This document shows, one piece after another, positions 32,949 to 64,000 of a stretch of DNA of 64,000 nucleotides. The notes under the pieces are model-generated. The model was not told where the DNA came from. It searched no databases and saw only the letters and a program-made list of their open reading frames with translations. A program made the translations under genes and the position numbers. The first letter of the stretch is position 1, and each line of letters starts with the position of its first letter. The DNA lies in NCBI GenBank assembly GCA_963575745.1, contig CAUYUJ010018060.1, positions 731,032-795,031 on the forward strand, in the 5' to 3' direction. The stretch comes from Prorocentrum cordatum. Lineage: Eukaryota; Sar; Dinophyceae; Prorocentrales; Prorocentraceae.

Positions 32949-33257
32949 GCGGCATGTCGGGGGCACCTCAGAGAGATGGCGCTGGCACACAGAGATGTGG
33001 CCGGGGTGCTAAAGCGGCACAATTATGTAGAGATCAAGAAGATCGGCGAGGGTAGCTTCGGCCGTGCCCTGTTAGTTGCGACAAGCGATGGAAACAGGCT
33101 CGTCTGCAAAATGGTGGACGTCAGCCAGGCGTCGCCCAAGGAGACGCATGACGCGGTGAAGGAGAGCCGGCTCTTGGCCCACTTCAAGCACCCCTACATC
33201 GTGCGGTACCGCGAGAGTTTCACAGACAGTGGTTGGCTCTGCATCCTCATGGAAGCC
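32949..33257 (+). CDS. NEK kinase exon 1: P-loop to hinge
   Basis: Encodes [13 protein letters not shown] (glycine-rich loop GEGSFG at 33,045-33,062), [10 protein letters not shown] (ATP-binding Lys codon 33,108), [20 protein letters not shown] (alpha-C Glu codon 33,162) and WLCILMEA, the hinge. A Met at 32,976 ([20 protein letters not shown]) could start the protein, giving a kinase domain right at the N-terminus as in many NEKs. An AG|G acceptor at 32,947-32,948 also fits an internal exon. The exon ends after GCC of MEA, where the intron begins GACGGG (GA donor, known in dinoflagellates). Confidence 0.85.
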
Positions 33258-36200
33258 GACGGGGCCAAATATCATTCAGTTTGCACCCACAAGCCTTGCG
33301 TGGGAAGAGCGTCCTCTATAAACGCTGGCAGGGTGTAGGTTCTGACGGGTACCCTCCCCCCAAAGTTTCTGGCACTCTCTAACATCATTCCCACCCAAAA
33401 GTGTGCAGGAGAGGGTCGAACCTCCCCCCTCCCTTGAAAACGGACACGACGACGAGGAGCACGACGATGAACGCGACGACGAACACGACGAAGACGCTGA
33501 CAACGAAGATTCTGCTCACGACGACGACGAATGCCATCTCCATCACACTCGTCCCGTCAACGAGCGATCTTACTGTCCCGCCCGCCCGCCCGCTTCAATG
33601 TCCCGCCCGACCGACCGACCCGCCCGCTTCAATGCCCCGCCCGCCTGGCCCGCCCGACTCTGTCAGGTTCCACCCTCCTGGCCGGTGATCGCCGGACTTC
33701 GGTCGTCTCCGTCAGCGTCAGTGCCGCCGCCGTTGTCGTCTTCGTCGTCGTGGTCGTTGTCGTCGTGGTTGTGGTCGTGGTCGTGTTTGTCGTCGTCGTC
33801 GTCGTGTTCGTCGCCGTCTGCCGGCGCGAGAGGAGGGCGGGGCTAGACTCCCCCAGCGCTTTCGGAGGGGGATGGGGGAGCATTGGTTCCGGGGGAGGGA
33901 GGGGTGATTTCCGGGCGAGGAGAAGCGGTTCCAGCGCTGAGAGGGTCAAGTTTGGATCTTGTTCGGTGGCGCGCCTAGGGTGGAAGAGAGGGGGAGCAGG
34001 CTTTCTCAGAAGACGGCGGGGCTTCTCAGCAGCATTCCAGCCTTGTGAGAAGTTTTCAGCGTCCTCGTGGAATGCTAAGAAAATTTCTTTCAGAAGGCCG
34101 GACGACCTCTCAACCTTCCGAGAAAAGGCCCGCCCCCTCTCACTTCCCCCCCGGGCTGGCCGTCGATTTTTTTTTTGGAGGGGGTTCTGCTTCTGTGAAG
34201 CCCTGGGGCCGGCTTAGATCTTGCGCAGCACAGCGCCCGCGAAAAGCGCTCTCTCCTGACATGCTTGTGGACGGTTCCTGCGTGGTTGGCGTTGTTGGCG
34301 CACCATTCTCGCCTGCGGATGTTGTTGCCTCTCGGACCCTTGGCATCGACCAACCGAGTGGCTCCAGGGCCGCCATGCGGGCGCAAGGTTATTCATGGTT
34401 CGCGGTGCGCGATTCTTCCTCCTCGGCCTCTTCGTGCTCCTCTCGGGGGGGGGGCGGAGCGAGAGCGAGAAGCTGTTCGCGACTCGCGCAGCGCGAGGCT
34501 CGGACACAGCTGCCCTCTGGGATTTCGGCAGCCAGGCGAGTTTGGTGTGGGTCGAGGCAGCCTCGTGCCCGGAGGTCGGGCAGGAGGGGGGGCCTGGGAG
34601 CGGCAGAACGCTCGGGAACCTGGGGCCCCGCGGGCGGCGGGGAGTGCAGGCATGGAGCAGGGCGCGGGGACGAGCCACTTCCATCCAGGATGTGGGCGCT
34701 CCGCCTTCAAATAATTAGGCTTTCACTGGCTCTACGTTTCGAGGGCCAATTTCTCTCCCCTGTCCATGGGCCTGGCGCCCACGCGCAAGATGCTCGGGTG
34801 GACACGTAGTCCATGTCAGCGCGTGCCCGGGGGAGGCGGGAGGGTGCGAGGTCGGAGCGCCCACAGTCTGTCGATCTGGGCACCTTGCCCCCAGGACTAC
34901 TGCGAGGGCGGTGACCTCACGAAGCAGATCGAGGCTCACGGGGCTGGAGCCTGCACGCCTTCCAGCCCGTCGGGCGTTGCGTATTGGGGGGCGATAAAGG
35001 GGGGAGAAGACTGGTGCACCATTTGTTCCACGAAAAGTGCACGTTTCCAGCCCCCCCCCAAACCCCACTTACCGCCCCCTCTTTTATGAACGCCCAAGTC
35101 CGCCCAACGCAGGGGAGAAGGTGGGGCGTGGGCGCGGGAGTGGAGCGAGGAACAGGACGCGGGAGGAGGTGTCCAGAGGCGGGGGAAGGAGGGCAGCGGA
35201 GAGGATGGGCGGCAGGAAACACATGAGGTTTTCCAGGAAGGGCCGCGTCTTCCAGGATCGAAGGAGTTGTCACGAATTTCTCTGCGGAAGGCGAGGGAAG
35301 GGCAGCAAAAGCCCCGGGGAAGTAAAGCGAGACCGCCTCCGCCGGCGGAAGACGGCGGAAGGCCACGGAGTAAAGTGGCGGAGGACGGCGGAAGACCGCC
35401 TCCGCCAGCGGAAGACGGCGGCAGTTGTCGGAAGTAAGGAATACACCTCCAAGATATGATTAGATGGCAGCACTCTTGGGCTCTGCGTTTCCGGGATCGG
35501 CCACGTGCTCGGCCGTGTTCGGCTCCGAGCGGTTTTGAGTGTGGCACGGCTTTTGTCCGGGGCCACCCTCGATGGGAGAGGGGGTGCAGCCGCAAGAGTA
35601 CGCGAGCAAGACTCTTCCTCCTCCTCCTCCTCCTCCTCCTCGTCATCCTTCTCCTCCTTGTCCTCCTGCTCCTCCTCCTTCTCCTCCTCCTCCTCCTCCT
35701 CATCCGCCTCCTCTTCCGTAGTCATTTTGGCTCAAAGTTTTGAGTTCCCATGTGAAACAAGTTGATACCGCAAGTCCGCGGCTAGACCTCTGTTCTTTCA
35801 ACGCACCGCTGCGTGAGCTGCCAAGCGGCGCAGCATACTGTGAGCTCCTGGAGGAGCAATTTCGTGCTGACGATTTCATGGCAAATGGCCTGCCTTCTCG
35901 TGCCGCAGCCGCGGGCAAGCCTTCGGCCAAAGGTGGGGAGCGCAAGGCGTGGGCGGCGCCATGGCTATGCAGGTGGTGCGCTCATGAACACACGGGCGCC
36001 AAATGGTGGAACCGAGGCGATTGCCAAGCTTGCACCAGCTGCAGTGTCGCCAAGGGTGCCAGTTTCGGGGGGCATAAGCCGCTGGATGGGCCGCCGAGCC
36101 AGCGCTCGCCTGAGGCCTCTGCAGAGCGCCGCCGTGCTGGAGCTGCGGCCGCAGACGCCCTTGCCGAGAAGGACCGCGAGATCGCCAAGCTACGCGAGCA

Positions 36201-39200
36201 GAACAAGGCGGCGAGTGGACCAGCTCCTCCCAGAGAAGATCCACCACCAGCAAATGCTGACCAGGAGAGGCTGTCCGAGATCGCGGGTTTGTTGCGCACC
36301 CTCGGTACATCCACCGACCTTGTCTTCGTGGCGGCGAGGGACGCGCTCTGGAAGGAGCGCGACGCCATCAAAGCCAAGATCGTGGAGGCCAAGCCGTATG
36401 CTGGACAGCTCCATCATTATACCACACGCATCAACACCTTGACGCAGGCCAAGGGTCAGCGACAGAACGTGTTGGATGGCTACAAAGAGCAACGGGTGCA
36501 ACTGGATGCCAAGATCGCGGGGGCGGAGGCCCAGATCAGCGAGCTGTCGGCTGACCTCCAGGAGCTGGAGGCGCTGCGCTGGAAGGTCTCAGCCAAGGCG
36601 CCCACGGCAGCGCCTGGAGACTGCTCGCTACGCACGCTCGTCCCCGCGATGGACCCTTCCGTTGAGAAACTGGGCCAGATGCTGCAGGGTCTGGGAGCCG
36701 ACGACGAGCTGTCCGAGTCTGTGTCTACCTGTTTCGGCCAGCTGCGGGCCCTGGCTGGCAAGGCTGACGCTGCTGAGAAGGAGAGGTCGGCTGCCAAGGA
36801 AGCCGAGCCTGATCGAGGAGCGGCACCAGCCGGCAGTGGGACCCTACCAGGGATGCCGACTACTGGCCAGCAACAAGCAGCTCAGGATCGCGCCGTACCC
36901 ATGGACACTGACGACATCACCGAGCTGCGCGACTTCCTGCGCACGGCGACTGGCCAGGACCCACCGCAGGAGGAACAGCAGGCCAGGGAGGCCATCAAGC
37001 GCTTCGCCAATGCAGCGGAGGCCCTGCACGCCAAGAAGCAACGCACAGGGCCGTCTGCCTGAAGTACCTGACATCATATATGATGTGCAATTACCTGCAG
37101 GGTCGCCTAAGCCTAGCTTGTCGTATGTGTGCCTGCAGGTGTATCACGTTGCCTTTTGGCGGAGTTTCTTTCTGGTAAAGTTCACGAAGCATTACTTCCG
37201 TAAGGCGTGCAGCGGCGCGTCACTTACCTCATGGACGCCTGAGACCGAACTGTCTAGGCTTGATTACGGTTTTCCTTTCGCTGGAAGCTGTCATTCTTGG
37301 CTCTATAGAGATTACCGCATGTACGTTTCTAAATTTGCACTGGACATCTCGTGGAGATGTGGATCACGGATAGCAGGTATATCAGCAACGGAGGCCAGGT
37401 CATGGTGCCGAATGCTGCCCAGCTGGGCTACGTGGACGTGCTGCGCCCCCCTCTACTCCATCGCATCTGGCATAGTGTGCGTGCTGAGGAGGTCAGGTCA
37501 AGTGCTGTTGACTGGCTCTCCTGGTAGCCGCGCGGATGCGGGCTTAAAAGTCGTTCGGCCTTCCCCAAGGCTTGCACCTCGAGAGTCTAGGGGTCCCGCA
37601 TGCCGACGTCGACCTGCAATGACTTCGACCTCGAGTACGCTGCAGGAACGGGAAGCTGATCCTGTAACAGAGGATCGGAGAGGTCAGCCAAGCGTCATGA
37701 GTCTTCGATATGGGATCCACTTCGCGGTCATGCTGCCACTGCTTTCAACGCAGACAACTGGCGCTCCAGCCACCGCCAATGGCGCGCTGACCTCCAACAT
37801 TACCTCGTGCGGTTTCAGGAAGGACGTGCTCACGCTGCCTCCATGTCGCGGTGCCATTACTTGCTTACACGAACATCCTGGCGACGGGCAGAAGATGCCT
37901 GGGCTTCAGCACACAGCGCGGCAATTGGGGCTACATGGAGTTTGGACGGCGGCCATCTCTATTGGGCGAGGAGGCACCACGGGTGGTTGCGCAATTGTGG
38001 CTCCGAAGCATCTACGCGTTGGGCTGGGCCCGCATCTCGCCTCTCCCACGCTGGTGCCTGGGCGTGTTACTGCTGGGCACGCGTCTTGGGGGCCTCGAAG
38101 AGGGGTGGTCCTCCTTGCAATATACTCGGTGGGCTCTGTTGGACCCAATGGGGAGAATATGAAGATACTTACGCAGACTGCAACTCATGAAGGGCAGTTC
38201 AATTATGCAGGCCACAAGTGGATCATTACAGGTGACTGGCATAGGGACCCCACGCTTATATTGGGACGGCTGCACTCCATCCATGGGCTGCAGAAGGCGC
38301 CCCTTCAACCTACCTGCAACGCGGTGCAGCCTGGGGCGGTGCGGGACTACTAGTTTGTGTTATGTTCTTTGGTGCAATGGCTAGCTGAATGTTCGTATTG
38401 TGTAACCGCTACCTCCCCGCACCAGCCCGTAATTTTGGGGCTTCAGATTCAGGGGCATCCGCAGTGGGCCCGCGTCCCATCGGTGCCCAAGAAGCCACCT
38501 ACCGTGCCAGTCGTAAGACGTTCGGTCCCCACCCGCAGCACAATGGCGACGGGTGCAGAGCCTTGTCAGCGCAGCCAGCGATGGACCTGCCCTTGCCCAT
38601 CGAGAAGGAGATCCTGGACCGCAACGATGTCATGGATCCGAAGATGCGCCGACAATCTCAAGGACGCGCTGGACCCAGCCAGTGGGAGTGGAAGCAGTCT
38701 GCGTCGATTGCCCCGCCACAGCCCCAACGACTACGAGCACGCAAGCTCCCTGGGAGGTGGCGCCGACACCTGCGATCCACATATACGCGAATGCTACTTG
38801 CCATGGAACGGGTTGTGGGACAAGGGTATGGCAGGGTATTTCCTGCGAGATTGCTGCCCGACATATTTGGCACATATGGACAGTCTGTATTGCACGATCA
38901 ACCAGCGGGTGGGCGCATATTGCTTGCCAAACTTGCTTGGGACCTCCAGGGCTTCTTTGCCAGGCTCGGGCGCACTACATGAGTGCCGCCTCTGTTGGGC
39001 GGCGAGGGCCAGCGCGTGTTCTTGCAGCTCCCCGGCCTCTTCTACCAGCCGGGTTTCCCTGAGGTGGTCGATCGGGCCGTCGAGAAAGTCACCGAGGTGG
39101 TGGATGCCATTAATAAATATGCTAGTATTGGTCGGGCTAACGGGTCCAAGCAAGTTTCCAGAATGGGGCCGGCAAGGCGCGCAGATACACAACAGTGCGG

Positions 39201-42200
39201 GGGCTGCAGGAGACATTACAAGATGCGGGGTCTCGTGGGCAGCCCTGCCAAATTGCAGATGGCTGCCTGGGTTTTTGGAGCGGCATATGGACCTTGCACG
39301 GTGATCAGGCCTTGGATAGACCAGTGGACTACGACCAACGGGAAGGACTACCTGCAATCACGGGGTTGGAGATACGGCGTACCATACGGAGGTCCAAGGC
39401 CACGACAGCATTGGGTCAAGTGCAGATTCAGCCGCGAGCATTGGAGCAGGTGTCCGACTTAGGCTTGGACACGTTAGGCCAATTACTCATGATCTGTGAG
39501 TCATTGGGTTGTTGGCCTACACAACGCGTCGCTACTACCATGGCGCGATTTCCTAAGCCGACAGGAGGGCACATACGAATAACGTTAATCGACGCAATTG
39601 TTAGGATCTGGAGCCGAGTACGAAGACCGATTTCCAAGCGGTGGGAGTTGGCCAACCCATCGCCGTCTTTCTGGGGATCACGACCAGGGGCCACTTCAAC
39701 GGACGCGGCAGTTCAGCACAATCTTGCGGTGGAGACGGCAAAGCACACGGGCATGCACTCAGTCAGTGCGCCCATTGACATGTTCAAGCGCTTTGAAACC
39801 ATTCGGTTCTCGGAGCTGGTCAGCCACGCTAGAAAGTTGCAGTTCCCGCTGCGCTTGCTCTGGCAACGCGTGCAAGTATATCAGGCACCACGCCTTGTGC
39901 GCCCATGCGGCTCCATACCATCCCCCTTTTACTTCCACCCAAGGCATTTTGGCTGGCTGTTCGCATGCGTGCGCCATGATTCATCTTCTCTTACACAAGA
40001 TGCCCGAAGACTTGAAGGCAAGATGCGAAGAGGTGGTCCCGCGTGCTCTGATTGATTGTGTTAGTTTCCAATGGATTGGGAATGACCCCGGGCGATCAGT
40101 GGATCTTTTTCATGCGGTGCGATGGTTTATACGACGAGTACAGCCTTTGGGGCACATTACGCAAGCGGACGCGAGTGGCTGCGTGGCAAGTACTAAGCCA
40201 GCTACCAAGGTCGCACAGAAGTTGGGTACGATAATGAATTTGCAATGCCGCAAGCACATGCGTAATCTGGGATGTGAACTGGCTGGTGTTCGATTGCGGC
40301 ATATACAGGAGCGACGACGACTACTTGGGATCAAAGCTCGACGGGGGGGGGGGCTACAATCACTACGGCGTGGGCAAGGCAAGGTGCACGCGCTGTTGCG
40401 AACGGGACTTCTCCCTGCAGCTGCACATGGTGCTGGAGCAAGTGGAGTAGTGCCATCCACCTTGGCCCAGCTACGCCACCTGGCTGGAGCCCTCGTGGGG
40501 GCCAAAGCCCATGCTAGCGCCACAGCTCGGTTGGCTACAGAGTCAGATGAATGGCATGATCCTATATTTGATGTCGCTACAGATGTAGTATGCAGATATG
40601 CAACGGGTATATGGGATTCACAGGTGTCCCTCGGACCACTGCCGAGGGCGTGGCCGGCCATGAAGGCAGCATGGGGTGGTGAATTCTCTTGGGCCAGATG
40701 CAATAGGCCCGTTGTCTGCAGTGGCGCTTTCCTTGCACCGAGTGGATTGGATGATGACATCGGCCCATGCTCTACAAGACGATCAAGGGACATCGATCAG
40801 TTCACTGCAGACACCACCGTGGGAGCTGAAGCAGCTACTTCGACACAGTATTGGGCGATGGCAGATGCGACGTATCGTTTCTCACATGCAACCGATTGTT
40901 GGCAACCCGAATGGCATCTGGAGGAGCGCCCCGCCGCGCCATCTTGAACCTGAAAGTTCCAATGAGTAATGGCTGCGCCAGACGTTTGATTGGTTCCGCC
41001 CTGTGGCCCCCTGCGCGTAAGAAGGCCCTTGGGCTCCTGTGAAAGCGATCGAAGTGAGTTTTGTGATTCTCTTGAGCCTGGCACCAAGGGCTCCTGCAGC
41101 CGCCCAGTGAGCTCCCTGTTGAACCAATGCCTGAGGACGTCTTGGAATGCAGGGCTTTAAAAAATTTGGGGTGGGGCTGCGGGGTCTTGGGGGCAATGGA
41201 CTGGGCGCGCCTGAGTGGCGCGCGCTCGAGCTTGCCTACGGTCTGCCGTCTCACCTTATACAGTTAGCGCCCCAGCCCCTGCAGTGCCTGGTGTTCCACT
41301 GGGGGGCTACGCACCTTCCCCGGGGTCGGCAGATCTACGCTGACGGCTTGGGGCTCGCGAGTGCGAGCCCAGAACTGCGTGGGCGTGGGTGGGCCGCGGT
41401 GGAGCTTTCGGATTCGGGCCTGCCCTTGAGGGCGGTGCACGGGCCTCCCCCTGGGCGCCAGTCGGTGCCGCGCGCGGGGAGGCATGCGGGCCTGACGGCG
41501 ATGAAAGTAGCCCCCCAGGTAGACACCATATATAATGACCATCTAACGTTTGTGAGAGAGGGTGATACCTGGAGTCGCAAGCTGGGAGGCGGCGCGGCAA
41601 GGCATGCAGACATCTGGAGGCAGACCCCTCAGCTCCGCAAGCCTGACCCCCCCCCCCCCCCCCCCCGCACACACGCACACGCCACAAAACAATACAGTTT
41701 GAGTGGGTCTCTGCTCACAGAGACACCGAGGGAGTGATGATGCTGGAGCAGGGGCAGGCCACCTGCTACTTAGGCAACCACTGGGCCGATGTTTTCCCGC
41801 GTCTGGGGGGGGGCAGGGCCACCAGCATGCGCAGGCGGTTGTAGATGTCGAGGGGGGCGGTTTGAATGCCTGTAAGCAAAACTGGAGTTTCTTGGCGCGT
41901 GCGGTCCAGATATTTGGGGGGTGATCTGAAGCTTTCGAGAGGTCCGAGAAGATGCCCCCCGGGCTTGAGAAGACTGACCGTCCCACTTTGCTTTCCCACG
42001 AGGTCTACTACCCCCCCTCGCGACAGGAGTGGAGATGCAAATGTTGCAACGTTGCGGCCAAGAGCGAGTTGACTCTCAGATCCATCGTCAGCGGGGCCGC
42101 GAGGCACTGCCACGGTGGAGAGTTAGAGCGCTGCCGCGCAGCCATTTTGATCACCGCCGACCCTGATGCCCACCCCTACGCGGCGCAGGGTCCAGCGGTG

Positions 42201-45200
42201 ACTGGTAACCTCGCTCCTCCTCGGGCCGTGGACCCCCATCCCCTTTTTACCACTGGTGCTGCGGTGGGCCCAGGGTTGAACGCTTTTGCTAATCTAGGTC
42301 ATCGCCCAGGGCGGCATGGCAGAGTTATCATTTGTCGGTTCTGTGCGGGGTACTGGGTGCTCCCTGATGGCCCATGGCGCAAGCTGAGATCGAGCTGGGC
42401 CAACTCAGGTTGCCAGCACGCTTGAGAGTCATCGTATGTATTGGCGCAACGCAGAGGTAGGCCGTCACCCTAAAATGGGGGTTGCCCCGGAACCGTGGGG
42501 CGGCGATTTTGTTTCTGCCGTTGGTTCGTTGGGCCCCGTTGGAGATCCCAGGGGCCTCCAGGACCAGGTGCTAGCTCTGCAAGCAGCGCCGAGCCTGTGC
42601 GACCAGTGCTTGTGGAGGGTGTGTGTCGTCCCGTCGTGACGTCGGCGAGTTCCCCAACCCCTCCCAGGCCCAGCAATGCCTCCACGCTCGAGCAGCGAGC
42701 GAATGTGGCACCGTCAAGCGCGGAGGCGGCGCAGCTCCGACAGGAGCCTGACAGCAGGCCCCTCCCCGCGTTGGTTTCTTCCGACGACTCTGACTGACAT
42801 TGGGCCATTCCTTGTGTCGTAACTGTGGCGGGCCGTCTGCTCTAATTCACCCGTGACAGGTGGCCCCTACCGTTTTGGTGCCGAAGGCACCCCTCTTGCC
42901 AGGCTTTCCGCCCTGGCCCACCGCACGGCGCTTGTCACCGACATGCGTCGCCGCGGCAGAATCCCATAATCCCTCCGCCTCCTCTTCGTATTCCTACATT
43001 CCTTCTCTTAATAGATAACTTTTCCTTGTCGCACCCCGAGGCCAGTTGTTAGGGCGGGCCCGGCGTTTCGCCTGAGACTTCCTCGCAATTTATGACCCTG
43101 AAACTTCAAAAGTTGACAACAGCTTCAGAGATGGAGGGTGGGTGGTTTTCAAAATATGGATTTCGCCTTTGCATCGCGCACATTCGTTTTCAAAATTTGC
43201 AGGAAGGCTTCACGGATTGAAGGCGGGTCGTTTTCCGTTTTCAAAATGTGGGTCTCGCCTTAGCGCCGCGCATATTCGTTTTCGAAATTCGCAAAAGTAT
43301 GACGGATTGGGGGCGGGTGGTCTTCAATTTGTGGTTCTCGCCTTAACGCCGCGTACATTCGTTTGCAAAAGTTGCAAGAGCTTCACGGATTGAGCGCGGG
43401 TCGTTTTCAAATGTGGTTCTCGCTGTAGTGCCGCGTGTATTCGTTTTCAAAATTTGCAAGAATTTCACGGATTGAGGGCGGCTCCATTTCAAAATGTGGT
43501 TCTCGCCCTAGCGCCGCGCACAGTCGTTTTCAAAATTCGTCAGGTTTCACAGAGTTCCATCATCAGCGCACCAGAAATTGTGTTCTGGAAGGACTCAGGA
43601 TTTTGCGGGTGCAACAGTTATGTTGATTCGCGGTGTTGAGATTTGACAAACGGCGTCATGGCACGGTTCTGGACCGTCAAAACGCAGCAGTCAGGTTGAT
43701 ACGTGGCGTTGAAATCCCGAGAACAATGTTTTGGCATGGTGCATGCTCTTCGAACGGTTGTCTTCCAACGAGGCAGTTCCCTCAATGGAAATGAAGCGTT
43801 GTAGGGGCCGACGAAGAAGGGGCTTGAAGGGAAGGTTAATTCCAACATCGTTGATGACCCTTGGGTTGACACTGGTCTTACTCCTCCTCCTCCTCCTCCT
43901 CCTCCTCCTCCTCCTCCTCCTCCTCCTCCTCCTCCTCCTCCTGGGGGCGGGCTGGGATGCAGAAGGGGCGGGGCCAGGCTGCGGGCCCAGGGCGAGAATG
44001 GCCAGATGGTCGGAGGGGGCGGGGCCTCGTGGAGGAGAGCCCCGGAAACGCAGCACCGGGGTGGAGGCGCGTGGCTCCGGGCCGGGTCCCGCTTCTGTGC
44101 GGAGGCGGGCCGCTCCGGCGCCATGCCAGGCGGCGCTGGCTCTGCGTTTCCGCGGCTGACGGTCGGGGTCTTTGGCTCAGCCCACCCCGCTTCGGCGCGA
44201 CCCGCTATCCACGTCCACGGCCCTGAGCGTCAGTGCCCCCAGCTTTTCCCCAGCCCTTGCAAACGGGGTGTTCGTAAACGGGGTGGTAGCTAAGGGACCT
44301 CTACGAGAGAGTACAGGGCGACATGACATTTACTTCGCACTAGCACGTGATAAACAGGGACGACAAATTCGTCGACACATCATCAAAACCCTGGGCGCGG
44401 GGGAATACCTTGCACTTGCGCGCGGCGAATCGATTTTTCGAAGGCACAATGGAAAACGAACCCTTAGCTACCGCCCTGTTTACAAACACCCCGTTTGCAG
44501 GAGCTTGGTTTCCCAGCCTCCCGCCCCGTGAAGACAGCGCTACATCCGCTTGCAAGGCACAGCGCGTCGCCAGGGCCCCGGCCTCGACGCGCTCGGCGGA
44601 AATTCCCGACGGGATAAGCCTTCCCCGATCCGTGGATCCGGCGCCTGCGCGCCAGATCCAAGCATCTCTACTCCACGTTAGCGCGTGCCCGAGAGAAGGC
44701 CTTGAACAAACATCGGCAAACAAACAGTAACGCCACACTCATCTGCCAACGCCCCCCCACAATGATCCACAGTTGGCCCGTAGATTCGATGCGCTGCACG
44801 TCGACCGCAGTCTTCCCCGCGCGTGCCGACTTTGGGGCGAGAGCACCAGTCTCAACGACGGGAGCAAAGCGCCGATCGGAAAATGAGGTCAACGCTGCAG
44901 CAGGGGCAACAGTTTGAGAAAGCGAAGAAAACTGGGAAAATCAATGTTTGACATCCGCCGACCCAGTCGCCGTGTGCGAGAAGCTGTCGTCGTCTTCGTC
45001 GTCGTCTTCGTCGTCGTCGTCGCCAGTTCCGAGGGAATCTAAAAACGAGCGTGCCTGAGGGCGGGGCGCGGGCCGGATGCTGGCGGGCATGCCCCCCCCC
45101 CCCCCCCCGCAGGCGGCGCGCAGGGCGCGGCGCACGATCGCGGAGGACCAGATCCTCCAGTGGATGACGCAGGCGCTGCTGGCCCTGAAGTAGCCGCGGA

Positions 45201-48200
45201 GCCTCGGGGGCCTCCCGCCGCCTCGCCCCCCGCGGCCTGGTGTGGCGCCCAAGGGTCGGCGCCACGCGCGAGGGAGCGTGTCTTGGCTCGCCCTCGGGGC
45301 CACAACGCGCGTTGTGCCCCCCCCCCCCCCCCCCCCCAATACCCCTCCATCCCCTGCCCTCGAAGAGAAGAAAAGACGGCATCAGCCTAAACTTGTGGCG
45401 CTCCGCGCGGATTTCTTGGATCCGCGTTGGGGCCTCCCCGGCGGCGCCTCTGGCGCCGCCCTTGGCGCAGATCCAAGAGATCCGCGCGGAGCGCCGAAAG
45501 TTTATTTGTTGCGTTATTTCTTCTTCTATTCCCCCCCCCATGAAAACGTACCGCTCCCCCCTCCCCCAGTGCGTCCCCGGCAATGCCGCAGTGTGTTCAG
45601 CACCGCAGACGTTGATGCGGGACCGTCACGGCGGAAGGGTGTTGGGGGCGTCACGTTGTCCCCCCCTCTTCCCCCCCAATAACGCCCACTACCGCCGCGA
45701 ACAAGGACATGCTCACTAAGAAGAACCCGCCGCCGAAGTGATCTTTTGGAAACCGGTTTTTTATTCCCTGGCAGTCACGGGCGCAACCGGGGGCGGAGGG
45801 GGGAGGGAGAGAGGGAGGTGAGGGGGAGGCATGGCGAGCCGGTCATTGGCGACATAGTGAATAGTTACGCAGTTTGATCTAGGGGTGCCCCTAGCCCTGG
45901 CTTGCGCGCCTGGATTTGGCTTATCCGCGGGCCCCCCTCAGCCGGGCAGCAGAGGTCACTCTTGCCGAGGGTCACTCTGCCCGCCCGCGGACAGTGACAC
46001 CATGAAAGAGGTTCAGAGGAGGAAGAGTTGAGACATCCCCGCCCGCGGCCAGTGACACCCTGAAAGATGCTCAGATTAGGGCGATTTGAGGCAACGGTAA
46101 TTGGCCTTCGTAAGGGCTCCTCATCGCCACGGCGGAACGGTGCTCGGATAACATCTGCGGTTGGACCTCTGGAAGGGGTTTGGGGACAGTTTGTAAGCTG
46201 CCGTTGTTTCGACTCGCCCTGCTCCGAAAAGAGGCGACGCAGAATGCAACCATTGGATGCCATCGGTTCTGGGCAACCTGAACGCCTGGATGCATGTCTG
46301 GTTGGCTCTGACCATGCAGCCGACCTTGCTTCTGCTGTGCAGCGATTTTGTGGGGGTGTGATGCTGCTGCAGCCGATGTCTTGCATCCCTCGGAAGTTGA
46401 AGGCTTCATCTTGGGGGTCCGGGGGGTCTCGCTGGGCATTCGTTGGGCATCTCTCGAGGCCTCGGGCCCGCATGTCGCCCCTCCCGGGAATGTTCTTACA
46501 CAGCCTCATGGCTTCGTCTCGGGGTCTTCGGTGCGAGCCAGGGTGCCGCGCATCTCGTACCCCTGGGAGCTCTCATCTGCTGTTGGGGGTCACGATCGCA
46601 TGAATTCGAATGTGTCTCCAGAGATGTGGACTTCGGGGGGCGCTCCCTGGAAGGGGCGGTAACTACAAGGCCTAGCTCATGAGGAACAGGGAGAGCGGTG
46701 ACAGGACAGTCCTCTTTTGGGGGACGCCATTCTCCATGCGACAGTATCGTGGTTCCCCCCGGGCCTCGCAAGGGGGGACGGCGGATATACACGACAAGCA
46801 CGTGCTGCACCGCGATTTGAAGGTTGCCAGACTCTTCCTATCCAAATGCGAAGAGTCTTTGTGGTGGTTCGCGTTGCTTGCAATACACATGTTGTCCGTT
46901 CCTCCCACGCAGAGCAAACCGGTATGTTATAGACCAGCCCTAAGTGTGAGAGTTAGCGACCCTACTTAATAATCCAGCCCTATAGTATAGTCCAGACTTA
47001 GTTGTGCAGCTCACTCACCCGCCCCTGTTGTGAGAGTTTTGAGCGGAGAGCCCATGCCACGTCAGCGCTGCAGTTGAGGATGACCCCATTGAGGCCCTCA
47101 CTTCTTATCTGTCGCACGACGCCAGATCGTGGCATGACACTGGCTTGACCCCACTGACGCTTTATGGGCTAGGGTAGGGCGCCAGAAGAGGCTCGCCGCA
47201 ACGTTTTGGTTATGAGTTGTCTTTGGCGATCTTGCCGTCTTGTCCCTGTCCTTGCCCCGTGCTTTGCTAGATTCGTACCTTGAGTGGATCGATCTGTGAG
47301 AGCGAGAGAGAGAGAGAGAGTGCGTGTGGCAGGCAGGTACTTCTATCCCACATGCTGCGGCCTTGCGGCTGAGTCCGTACACAAACGAGGGACAACATGT
47401 GTGCGAAGGGGGGTGTTTGTTGTGAGAAATTCTTTGCGTAAGACCAGGCTGCCAACTTGTTCCTCTCGAAGAGCGGAAACCTGAAGCTGGGAGATTTCGG
47501 CATCGCGAAGGTGCTTTCGTCCACAGCAGCATGTGCAAGGACTCAGATCGGAACTCCATATTACCTCAGTCCCGAGGTGTGTCGGGAGCTCAGCGTCCCG
47601 CCGCCACGTGGCCGTCGTCTCTTATGTCGTTAGTACTTCGCTCAGTTGCGAGCTGCGCTGTTTTATATATGGAGGCACTCGCCTTCTGCCGCTTGTGTTG
47701 CAAGAGGTGCCCGAGGTAGGTTGAAAGGCAAACCAGGAAGTCCAGCTCGCAACAGGGAAGTCCGTCCCCGAACGGAGACATGCTCTCTGGTCGAACGTTT
47801 TCTGGGCCGAGCGCAGTACTTCTGCACGGCGCGGCCAGGAAATTCTCCCGGGTGAGCAGGGCAATTTTCGCGTGTCTGTAGTTGAACAGGGGGTGGCTCT
47901 TTCCCAGTGATCAGCTTCGGTGTAATTTGCGCTTCAGGGGCTGTCTTGCCAGTCGTATTCCTGGTTGGTGATGGCCTGCTCCTATGCTTCTGACCTGACG
48001 TTGTGGGGCGGGGCCTCAACTTATGCCTTCGATGTGTGGTGGTTGCAGGTTTTCTGGGTTCCTTTTCCGATCGAGGAGTGTCTTTCACACCTGCCTTCGT
48101 GGCGTTGTGGCTGCCTGGACGCGGCGCTTGATCATAATGTCTTCGGTTTTTTTGGCTGCCTGGCCGTGGACGCGACGCGGCCCTTTGGCCTGCCTTGGAA

Positions 48201-61883: not shown

Positions 61884-63028
61884 TTCCCAACCATCCTGTA
61901 GTGTTGGGTCCTCGTTTTGAAGAGACAGCGCCCCGCGTTCACTCCTTCCTTCCTTCCTTCCTCCCGCTGCCCCTCCCTCGTCACCGCACCCATTTCAGCA
62001 CACCCCTCACACGCTGCGTGGCCCCATAGGGAGCTCCACCGAAGGCCCCAGTGGCTGCGTTCGCATGGCGGCGCCGCATCCATTTCAGCACACCGCTCAC
62101 ACGTTTCGTGGCCCCATAGGGAGCTCAACCGAAGGTCCCAGTGGCTGCGTTCGCATGGCGGCGCCGCACCCATTTCGGCACACCCCTCACACGTTTCGTG
62201 GCCCCATAGGGAGCTCCACCGAAGGCCCCAGTGGCTGCGTTCGCATGGCGGCGCCGCACCCATTTCGGCACACCCCTCACACGTTTCGTGGCCCCATAGG
62301 GAGCTCCACCGAAGGCCCCAGTGGCTGCGTTCGCATGGCGGCGCCGCACCCATTTCGGCACACCCCTCACACGCTTCGTGGCCCCATAGGGAGCTCCACC
62401 GAAGGCCCAGTGGCTGCGTTCGCATGGCGGGCTTTCGGCACACCCCTCACACGTCGTGGCCCCATATGGAGCTCCACCGAAGGCCCCAGTGGCTGCGTTC
62501 GCATGGCGGCGCCGCACCCATGTCGGCACACCCCTCACACGTTTCGTGGCCCGATAGAGAACTCCACCGAAGGCCCCAGTGGCTGCGTTCGCATGGCGGC
62601 GCCGCACCCATTTCGGCACACCCCTCACACGTTTCGTGGCCCCATCACACGCTTCGTGGCCCCATGGGGAGCTCCACCGAGGGCCCCAGCGGCTGCGTTG
62701 GCATGGCGGCGCCGCGGCCATGTCGGCACACCCCTCACACGTTTCGTGGCCCCATAGGGAGCTCCACCGAAGGCCCCAGTGGCTGCGTTCGCATGGCGGC
62801 GGCGCCGCGCCCATTTCGGCACACCCCTCACACGTTTCGTGGCCCCATAGGGAGCTCCACCGAAGGCCCCAGTGCTACCGCCCTCATGCGTCCCGTACGC
62901 CCAGGACAGCGTTTCGTGGCACGCCTTTCGTGGCCCCATAAGGAGCCCCACCGAAAGCGGCACCCACAAAGCGTTATTCACAATTGCATATGCTTGGGTT
63001 GTTCGCCAGGATATTCTTTTTGGGTTCT
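61884..63028 (+). mobile_element. Composite minisatellite-bearing element C
   Basis: Leader TTTTTCCCAACCATCCTGTA then GTGTTGGGTCC, GTTTTGAAGAGACAG; pyrimidine stretch; array of 90-bp units; tail CACAATTGCATATGCTTGGG then TTGTTCGCCAGGATATTC. Same plan as elements A and B, but the unit is 90 bp and not 77. Confidence 0.65.
62005..62945 (+). repeat. 90-bp tandem array of element C (about 10-11 units)
   Basis: Unit: GTTTCGTGGCCCCATAGGGA, GCTCCACCGAAGGCCCCAGT, GGCTGCGTTCGCATGGCGGC, GCCGCACCCATTTCGGCACA, CCCCTCACAC. Since 90 is 30 codons, a 415-residue repeat frame stays open. This is a consequence of the period, not evidence of a protein. One unit (near 62,640) has a partial internal duplication. 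Confidence 0.9.
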
Positions 63029-63089
63029 TCAAAGTGGGATTCCTACTCGGAGATCCCACACATCCCCTGACATCTGGCCGGTACCGCGC

Positions 63090-63262
63090 CTCGCGGCTTC
63101 TCGGGGGGCCACCAAGACGCCCAAGGACGGCCCAAGACGACCCCAAGGAGCCCCCAGAACGTGAAGAACGGCCCAACACGCTCCTGCGCAGCCCGAAACA
63201 CCCTTCCGACGGCTCTCCAGGCCTCCAGGAGGCCTGCAGAACCCCCAGGGGGTCCGGAAGAT
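63090..63262 (+). repeat. Degenerate repeats between elements C and D
   Basis: AAGGACGGCCCAAGACGACC then CCAAGGAGCC and similar words. Same type as elsewhere. Confidence 0.5.
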
Positions 63263-63367
63263 CACACACCCCTGAGGGGCCCGGCTAACAAAACCCCGAG
63301 GCACAAACAAAAAACAGCGCCGAACAGCGCCGACGAACAGGGAAAACATTGAAATCCCACAATTCCA

Positions 63368-64000
63368 TGTTTCCCAACCACCCTGTGGTGTTGGGTCCTC
63401 GTTTTGAAGAGACGGTCCCCGCGTCTCCTTCTCCTCCTCCTCCTCCTCCTCCTCCTCCTCCTCCTCCTCCTCCTCCTCCTCCTCCTCCTCCTCCCTCTTC
63501 GTGCCCCCCCCGCCCCCAGTGGGGTGTACCACATGCGTCCGCCACACCAAGCACGGCGCTTCGTGGCCCCATAGGGAGGTCCACCTAAGGCCCCACTGGT
63601 GTGTACCACATGCGTTTCCCCCACCCATCACAGCGCTTCGTGGCCCCATACGGAGGTCCACCTAAGGCCCCAGTGGTGTGTACCATATGCGTCTCCCCCA
63701 CCCATCACAGCGCTTCGTGGCCCCATTGGGGCTCCGCCGAAGGTCCCCGTGGCGCAGTCTGCATGCGTCTCCCTCACCCAGTACACCGCTTCGTGGCCAC
63801 ATAAGGATCTCCGCCTAAGGTCCCAGTGGCGCAGTCCGCATGCAACTCCCCCACGCAGTACACCGCTTCGTGGCCCCATTGGGGCTCCGCCGACGGTCCC
63901 CGTGGCGCAGTCCGCATGCGTCTCCCCCACCCAGTACAGCGCTTCGTGGCCCAATAGGGGCTCCGCCGGAGGTCCCTGTGGCGCAGTCCGCATGCGTCTC
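63368..64000 (+). mobile_element. Composite minisatellite-bearing element D (cut by window end)
   Basis: Leader TTTCCCAACCACCCTGTGGT then GTTGGGTCCTCG, GTTTTGAAGAGACGG; (TCC)n at 63,427-63,494; then 77-bp units (TTCGTGGCCCCATANGGAGG, TCCACCTAAGGCCCC, CACATGCGTTTCCCCCACCC) from 63,555 to the window end. The unit length equals that of element A. The tail is outside the window. Confidence 0.65.

Follow-up and report, generated by a model that had tools for sequence, protein, structure and literature searches.

What does it mean for a retrotransposon to begin with the leader that its host puts on its own messages? The question is raised by a 64,000-nucleotide (nt) stretch of the Prorocentrum cordatum genome (the window), in which a long interspersed nuclear element (LINE) at 35,703–42,987 starts with a dinoflagellate spliced leader (dinoSL), the short leader that the dinoflagellate cell attaches to its own messages. 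LINEs normally must keep a promoter at their 5′ end that each insertion has to copy. Here, host trans-splicing seems to supply the 5′ end: judging from the window copy and its relatives, LINE RNA has very probably been repeatedly trans-spliced, copied to the cap and inserted at simple repeats, with the leader as the 5′ end of the LINE.

A first-pass annotation of the window had described a full-length LINE, with an intact first open reading frame (ORF1), behind a near-exact dinoSL and bracketed by an identical 14-bp repeat. Both the leader and the repeat hold up. The dinoSL (TCCGTAGTCATTTTGGCTCAAA, 35,715–35,736, plus strand, as are all LINE features below) lies directly ahead of the LINE, forms its 5′ end and differs from the 22-nt dinoSL by two mismatches; nothing else in the window matches at three or fewer mismatches, and none of 100 shuffles gave such a match. 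The repeat TCCGCCTCCTCTTC is exact at 35,703–35,716 and 42,974–42,987 and has no other exact copy in the window; five more sites match it with one mismatch, owing to CTC-rich sequence. The left copy overlaps the first two leader bases, so the target-site duplication measures 12–14 bp. The CTC-rich pyrimidine tract at 35,612–35,714 is the host target flank, and the tracts of other copies differ here.

Behind the leader follow a 5′ untranslated region (UTR) module common to several LINE families (35,737–35,859) and ORF1 (35,878–37,062), which is open, as annotated, for 394 codons plus a stop from the ATG at 35,878 and is 63% identical to ORF1 of a relative, L028. The regions of ORF2 are present in order, as located by tblastn with ORF2 of L028 and by the Pfam domains of L028: an apurinic/apyrimidinic endonuclease (APE)-type region (37,412–38,515), a pre-reverse transcriptase (RT) region with the RT (38,599–40,930) and an RNase H region (41,210–41,811, by tblastn). 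ORF2 is nevertheless broken: it matches L028 in ten tblastn pieces, some holding internal stops, the RT is frameshifted, and the catalytic motif that reads MDD in L028 reads IDC. A Pfam search of the window copy recovered RVT_1 only at E = 0.018. The 3′ UTR (42,798–42,973) has no poly(A) tail and ends in AATCCCATAATCCC. As judged from these features, the window copy is a dead, full-length LINE with ORF1 and an APE-endonuclease, RT and RNase H ORF2. Downstream of the leader it matches LINE proteins and does not represent a copy of a host parental gene.

We searched the 4.13-Gb P. cordatum assembly for relatives. Seventeen of the 20 that were fetched came from a leader-first query (best 40 of 276 candidates scored) and have a match starting at query position 1–6; the other three, L027–L029, were found through ORF1 alone. 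All 20 start with a dinoSL (17 exact, 3 with one edit), and with the window included the leader is exact in 17 of 21 copies. The copies fall into group A (the window and L010–L012; 79–89% identical), group A′ (L027–L029; 98.6–99.4% identical over 6.9 kb and 65–69% identical to group A), group B (L014, L019–L021 and L025), group C (L016, L017, L022, L023 and L026) and group D (L018 and L024), with L013 and L015 standing apart. L016 and L017 have the same flank and were counted as one insertion. Groups A–D have about 120 nt of 5′ UTR in common, and no body alignments of more than 400 nt between them are listed apart from repeats beyond the 3′ ends. In L027–L029, ORF1 and ORF2 are both open. L028 combines an RT and an APE-type endonuclease in one ORF, with Pfam matches to RVT_1 (1.1e-7, above the cut-off) and to Exo_endo_phos (4.6e-5) and RNase_H (9.8e-5), both just below the cut-off; the window copy is homologous but broken. 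Several LINE families thus start with the leader, a broader set than the single lineage of the first-pass annotation.

Is the leader truly where these elements begin? The first-pass annotation had looked to copies sharing sequence upstream of the leader as the sign that they do not begin there. By BLAST of the window against the 20 loci, similarity upstream of the leader consists of simple CTC-type tracts only. Read by eye, the 110 nt upstream are pyrimidine-rich simple sequence that varies from copy to copy, save in L016 and L017; L013 has none. As far as the copies were compared with one another, partly by eye, only simple tracts are shared. We also searched with UTR sequence alone, using the 121 nt from behind the leader (best 40 of 391 candidates scored). 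In 19 of the 20 best-ranked new copies a leader lies directly upstream (11 exact, six with one edit, one with two and one with four), and together with ten copies found earlier, 29 of the 30 matches examined among these best 40 carry it. Across 18 copies, drawn from the leader-bearing query and compared with one relic removed and one base padded, pairs of copies differ on average by 2.1% in the leader, by 13–14% in the UTR and by 23% in the sequence immediately after the leader. These leaders are dinoSL relics: genomic dinoSLs that head transcript-derived sequence.

The UTR module itself (window 35,737–35,859; L010–L026) is common to groups whose bodies hardly align as DNA, and folds with a conserved stem (alignment A1, columns 94–121) that has few covarying pairs. 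It could serve as a promoter, a packaging signal or a splicing aid. A 5′ ribozyme known to Rfam was considered and rejected, as 35,600–43,100 gave only two sub-threshold matches.

Target-site duplications place the same boundary at the leader. They are flush with it on both sides of the insertion in L027 (18 bp, GCCACTCCCCCCCCCCCC), L028 (15 bp, CCTCCTCCTCCTCCG), L029 (16 bp, CCTCCTCATCCTCCTC) and L013 (16 bp, CTCTCGCTGCCGCGCC, which is not CTC). In these four copies a T and then the 21-nt core come right after the left duplication, which puts all 22 nt of the leader (D = T) within the insertion. Similar duplications in L022, L024 and the window copy bring the informative cases to 7 of 21 copies, as classed by reading. 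None of the 3′ ends read has poly(A), and the endings differ by group (GCCGCAAG, GGTGAT, CCGCCCAT and AATCCC). The 3′ ends of group A′ have a short variable repeat (GCCGCAA). We infer from this anatomy that the LINEs insert by target-primed reverse transcription.

Some copies carry the remains of an older leader behind the present one. L019 has the leader and one 15-nt relic with its last base changed, and L047 has the leader and two 15-nt relics; the window copy itself has no tandem relic truncated after leader nt 7. Genome-wide, 1,202 exact leaders are followed by a 15-nt relic, that is, by a tandem relic truncated after nt 7. In the parts of PMC3229502 available to us, such tandem truncated relics are ascribed to re-splicing at the AG after leader nt 7. 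The assembly holds 14,218 exact dinoSLs, and we sampled 40 of these loci (every fifth of the first 100 listed, in two sets; one item, identical to L019, was replaced by the next). An older relic lies directly behind the leader in 15 of the 40, compared with 1.6% at other offsets in the same loci. L034, L040 and L059 have whole relics behind the leader, which would fit splicing at a flanking AG. Copies that are nearly identical also differ in how the leader is joined: in L029 it is followed by CGTGAGG and in L027 and L028 by TCCGTAG and then CGTGAGG, which fits two acceptor sites. Together, these arrangements support the addition of leaders to LINE RNA more than once.

The insertions favour simple tracts. 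Twelve pyrimidines, with one free base between, lie upstream of 4,110 of the 14,218 leaders (28.9%) compared with 1.3% of window positions, and twelve purines, likewise spaced, lie upstream of 1,371 (9.6%) compared with 2.2%. Pyrimidines make up at least 85% of the 60 nt upstream in 20 of the 21 copies (72% in L013), and at least 80% of the upstream bases read in 16 of the 19 leader-bearing UTR matches. CTC tracts are strongly preferred among the relatives; L013, L080, L094 and L098 are exceptions. We considered whether every leader has a pyrimidine tract ahead of it to make the acceptor, and rejected this as a general rule, as the first 20 sampled leaders also lie behind purine or CA/TA repeats or no repeat.

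The DNA therefore carries a set of footprints: a leader at the 5′ end, a precise boundary, some duplications, stacked relics, alternative junctions and a preference for simple tracts. The first-pass annotation had proposed that LINE RNA was trans-spliced and reverse transcribed at full length with the leader as its own 5′ end, and the boundary, the flush duplications and the repeated leader addition all favour that proposal. We infer, beyond the footprints themselves, the trans-splicing, read-through transcription from host sequence upstream and an aid of the tract to trans-splicing. In the cycle we propose, a genomic LINE copy would be transcribed and its RNA trans-spliced, so as to begin with the 22-nt dinoSL and a cap. 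Target-primed reverse transcription would then take place at a microsatellite, in many cases a CTC tract, with the RT of the element copying this RNA all the way to its first nucleotide, so that the new copy starts with the leader. On re-transcription, the AGs of the leader (nt 6–7 and nt 21–22) could serve as acceptors. Splicing at the last leader AG would restore the leader exactly, splicing at the first would leave a 15-nt relic behind the new leader, and splicing at a flanking AG would leave the whole old leader behind the new one.

Much of this might instead be explained by a leader captured once and then inherited as element DNA, with transcription starting at or near it and no new trans-splicing. 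Nearly every copy examined does have its leader in the same position, and the conserved 5′ UTR stretch behind it could hold an internal promoter. We nonetheless consider a single capture very unlikely in view of stacked relics whose joint falls precisely between leader nt 7 and nt 8 or ahead of nt 1, two leader joints among copies that are 98.6–99.4% identical, a leader that differs far less among the 18 copies than the sequence behind it, and identical leaders on families whose bodies hardly align as DNA. A different account, in which leader-bearing copies are one-off retrocopies of trans-spliced LINE mRNA that are dead on arrival, and active masters are leaderless with normal upstream promoters, would suit the many broken copies, the window copy included, as well as the treatment of relic leaders as marks of retroposed mRNA in the available parts of PMC6050394. 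It appears very unlikely, however, as the leader also heads L027–L029, which are the best preserved copies and have open ORFs, and 29 of the 30 UTR matches examined, and the stacked relics imply that leader-bearing copies served again as templates. The nearly identical L027–L029, with their open ORFs, show that leader-bearing copies include some whose proteins may still be functional. The nearly uniform pyrimidine content upstream (20 of 21 copies) might also mean that the tract is part of the element rather than its target, and the leader internal. This is extremely unlikely: tract sequence and length vary, the 3′ duplication repeats the individual tract (for example, GCCACTCCCCCCCCCCCC in L027), the duplication of L013 is not CTC, and sampled leaders also lie behind purine, CA or TA repeats.

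Several points weigh against repeated trans-splicing followed by full-length copying and insertion. Trans-splicing is read here from footprints in DNA. Most loci (18 of 21, window included) came from a query that contained the leader, and one UTR match, L097, has no leader. Duplications are uninformative in eight copies, where they consist of simple repeats, and were not found in six (L011, L012, L014, L015, L018 and L023), which makes 14 of the 21. The edit-distance limits for relics were fixed after some of the 40 loci had been inspected, and since an exact leader was the criterion for picking those loci, an intact outer leader is not evidence there. About 10% of leaders lie behind purine tracts and others behind CA, TA or minisatellite repeats or no repeats, and the pyrimidine tract is thus not needed in general.

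Repeated trans-splicing could be one part of a larger picture, which we put forward tentatively and regard as possible but doubtful. The LINE assemblage would have no 5′ end of its own; its members would be transcribed by read-through, receive the host cap and leader in each cycle and, by inserting at pyrimidine tracts, place the AG of the leader behind a polypyrimidine tract that is already there, so that many insertions build their own acceptor, with no promoter needed. Such an assemblage would also explain the frequent survival of host retrocopies in dinoflagellates, and the majority of dinoSL relics in the genome would mark the start of a LINE and not a retrogene.

What lies behind the leaders in the genome at large? 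Nine of the 40 sampled loci, chosen mainly for having no LINE match in the first 450 nt, were followed for 4.4–5.8 kb, and in all nine the downstream sequence resembles LINE proteins in the orientation of the leader. The match to LINE endonuclease or RT is clear in seven (L050, L051, L053, L054, L076, L077 and L078), moderate in L052 (5.8e-25 to P0007) and weak in L055 (3e-6 over 57 residues). Another 14 leaders are linked to LINEs only by a shared stretch of about 70–125 nt behind and including the leader. In total, 23 of the 40 leaders are tied to LINEs and 17 are unclassified; no host retrogene was demonstrated among the 40, of which these 17 were not followed downstream.

Among the sampled loci, L032/L050, L036, L042 and L049 represent a LINE family with GCCATGAACCG or a variant right behind the leader; L050 has an open ORF with endonuclease and RT, and the sites of this family are TA, CA or minisatellite repeats or lack a repeat, and are not CTC. 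L041 and L067, leader loci 8.3 kb apart on contig C39, represent a duplicated locus: they share 99.6% identity over 451 nt, and their upstream sequences are also alike. In the viral collection IMG/VR, a contig of 7,157 bases (L001) carries two exact dinoSLs 147 nt apart on its reverse strand, the second just ahead of an ORF starting MASLTFSVQRF; it may be host DNA or a virus that mimics the leader. No DNA match came from the phage collection, and the viral contigs gave no protein relative of ORF1.

The window also records the host setting. Kinase exons lie on the plus strand on both sides of the LINE: an N-lobe exon upstream (33,024–33,257; Pfam Pkinase, profile positions 1–79, E = 1.6e-11) and another exon downstream (47,451–47,585; profile positions 127–170, E = 4.8e-15). 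They support the annotated location of the LINE inside a kinase intron in sense orientation. Tandem arrays of 77- and 90-bp units with a common motif, CGTGGCCCCATAGGGAGCTCCACCGAAGG, occupy 354–1,732 and 61,911–64,000.

Dinoflagellates are already known to have dinoSL relics, mRNA recycling and LINEs. We found no description of LINEs that regularly begin with a dinoSL in the open-licence literature, which does not prove that there is none. The field takes a dinoSL ahead of an ORF as the tag of a retrogene, and in the P. cordatum genome it is often the start of a LINE (23 of 40 sampled). If this is general, these LINEs are a candidate source of RT for dinoflagellate mRNA recycling, and the kinds of leader joint could be a marker for counting rounds of retrotransposition.

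The elements resemble several known systems in part. Like other APE-endonuclease LINEs, they have two ORFs, similarity to Exo_endo_phos, RVT_1 and RNase_H, and duplications of 15–18 bp in L013 and L027–L029; unlike them, they have a host-derived 5′ end, and the 3′ ends read are without poly(A). LINEs that target microsatellites include Dong, Kibi/Koshi (TC repeats) and Waldo. The P. cordatum elements likewise insert in short tandem repeats, here CTC, GAG, CA or TA, and differ in adding a host leader to the target preference. The Pr77 module of trypanosomatid L1Tc/ingi elements, as described in the passages available to us, is also a short 5′ module shared across elements in a trans-splicing, polycistronic protist; Pr77 activates the transcription of unspliced transcripts and holds a hepatitis delta virus-like ribozyme, whereas here Rfam gives no ribozyme family in the window copy and the terminus is the leader.

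The closest parallel is mRNA recycling, in which dinoSL-tagged retrogenes come from trans-spliced mRNA that reverse transcription has carried back into the genome (Slamovits & Keeling 2008, as cited in the available parts of PMC6050394 and PMC3229502). In the dinoflagellate literature as far as it was available to us, retroelements appear as the likely source of RT for retroposition, not as carriers of the leader. As in mRNA recycling, truncated tandem relics would form when a later round of splicing takes the AG after leader nt 7 (PMC3229502, in the part available). Unlike in mRNA recycling, the templates here are LINEs, which regularly have the leader as their 5′ terminus, and it seems that later splicing can also rebuild the leader exactly or keep a full relic behind it.

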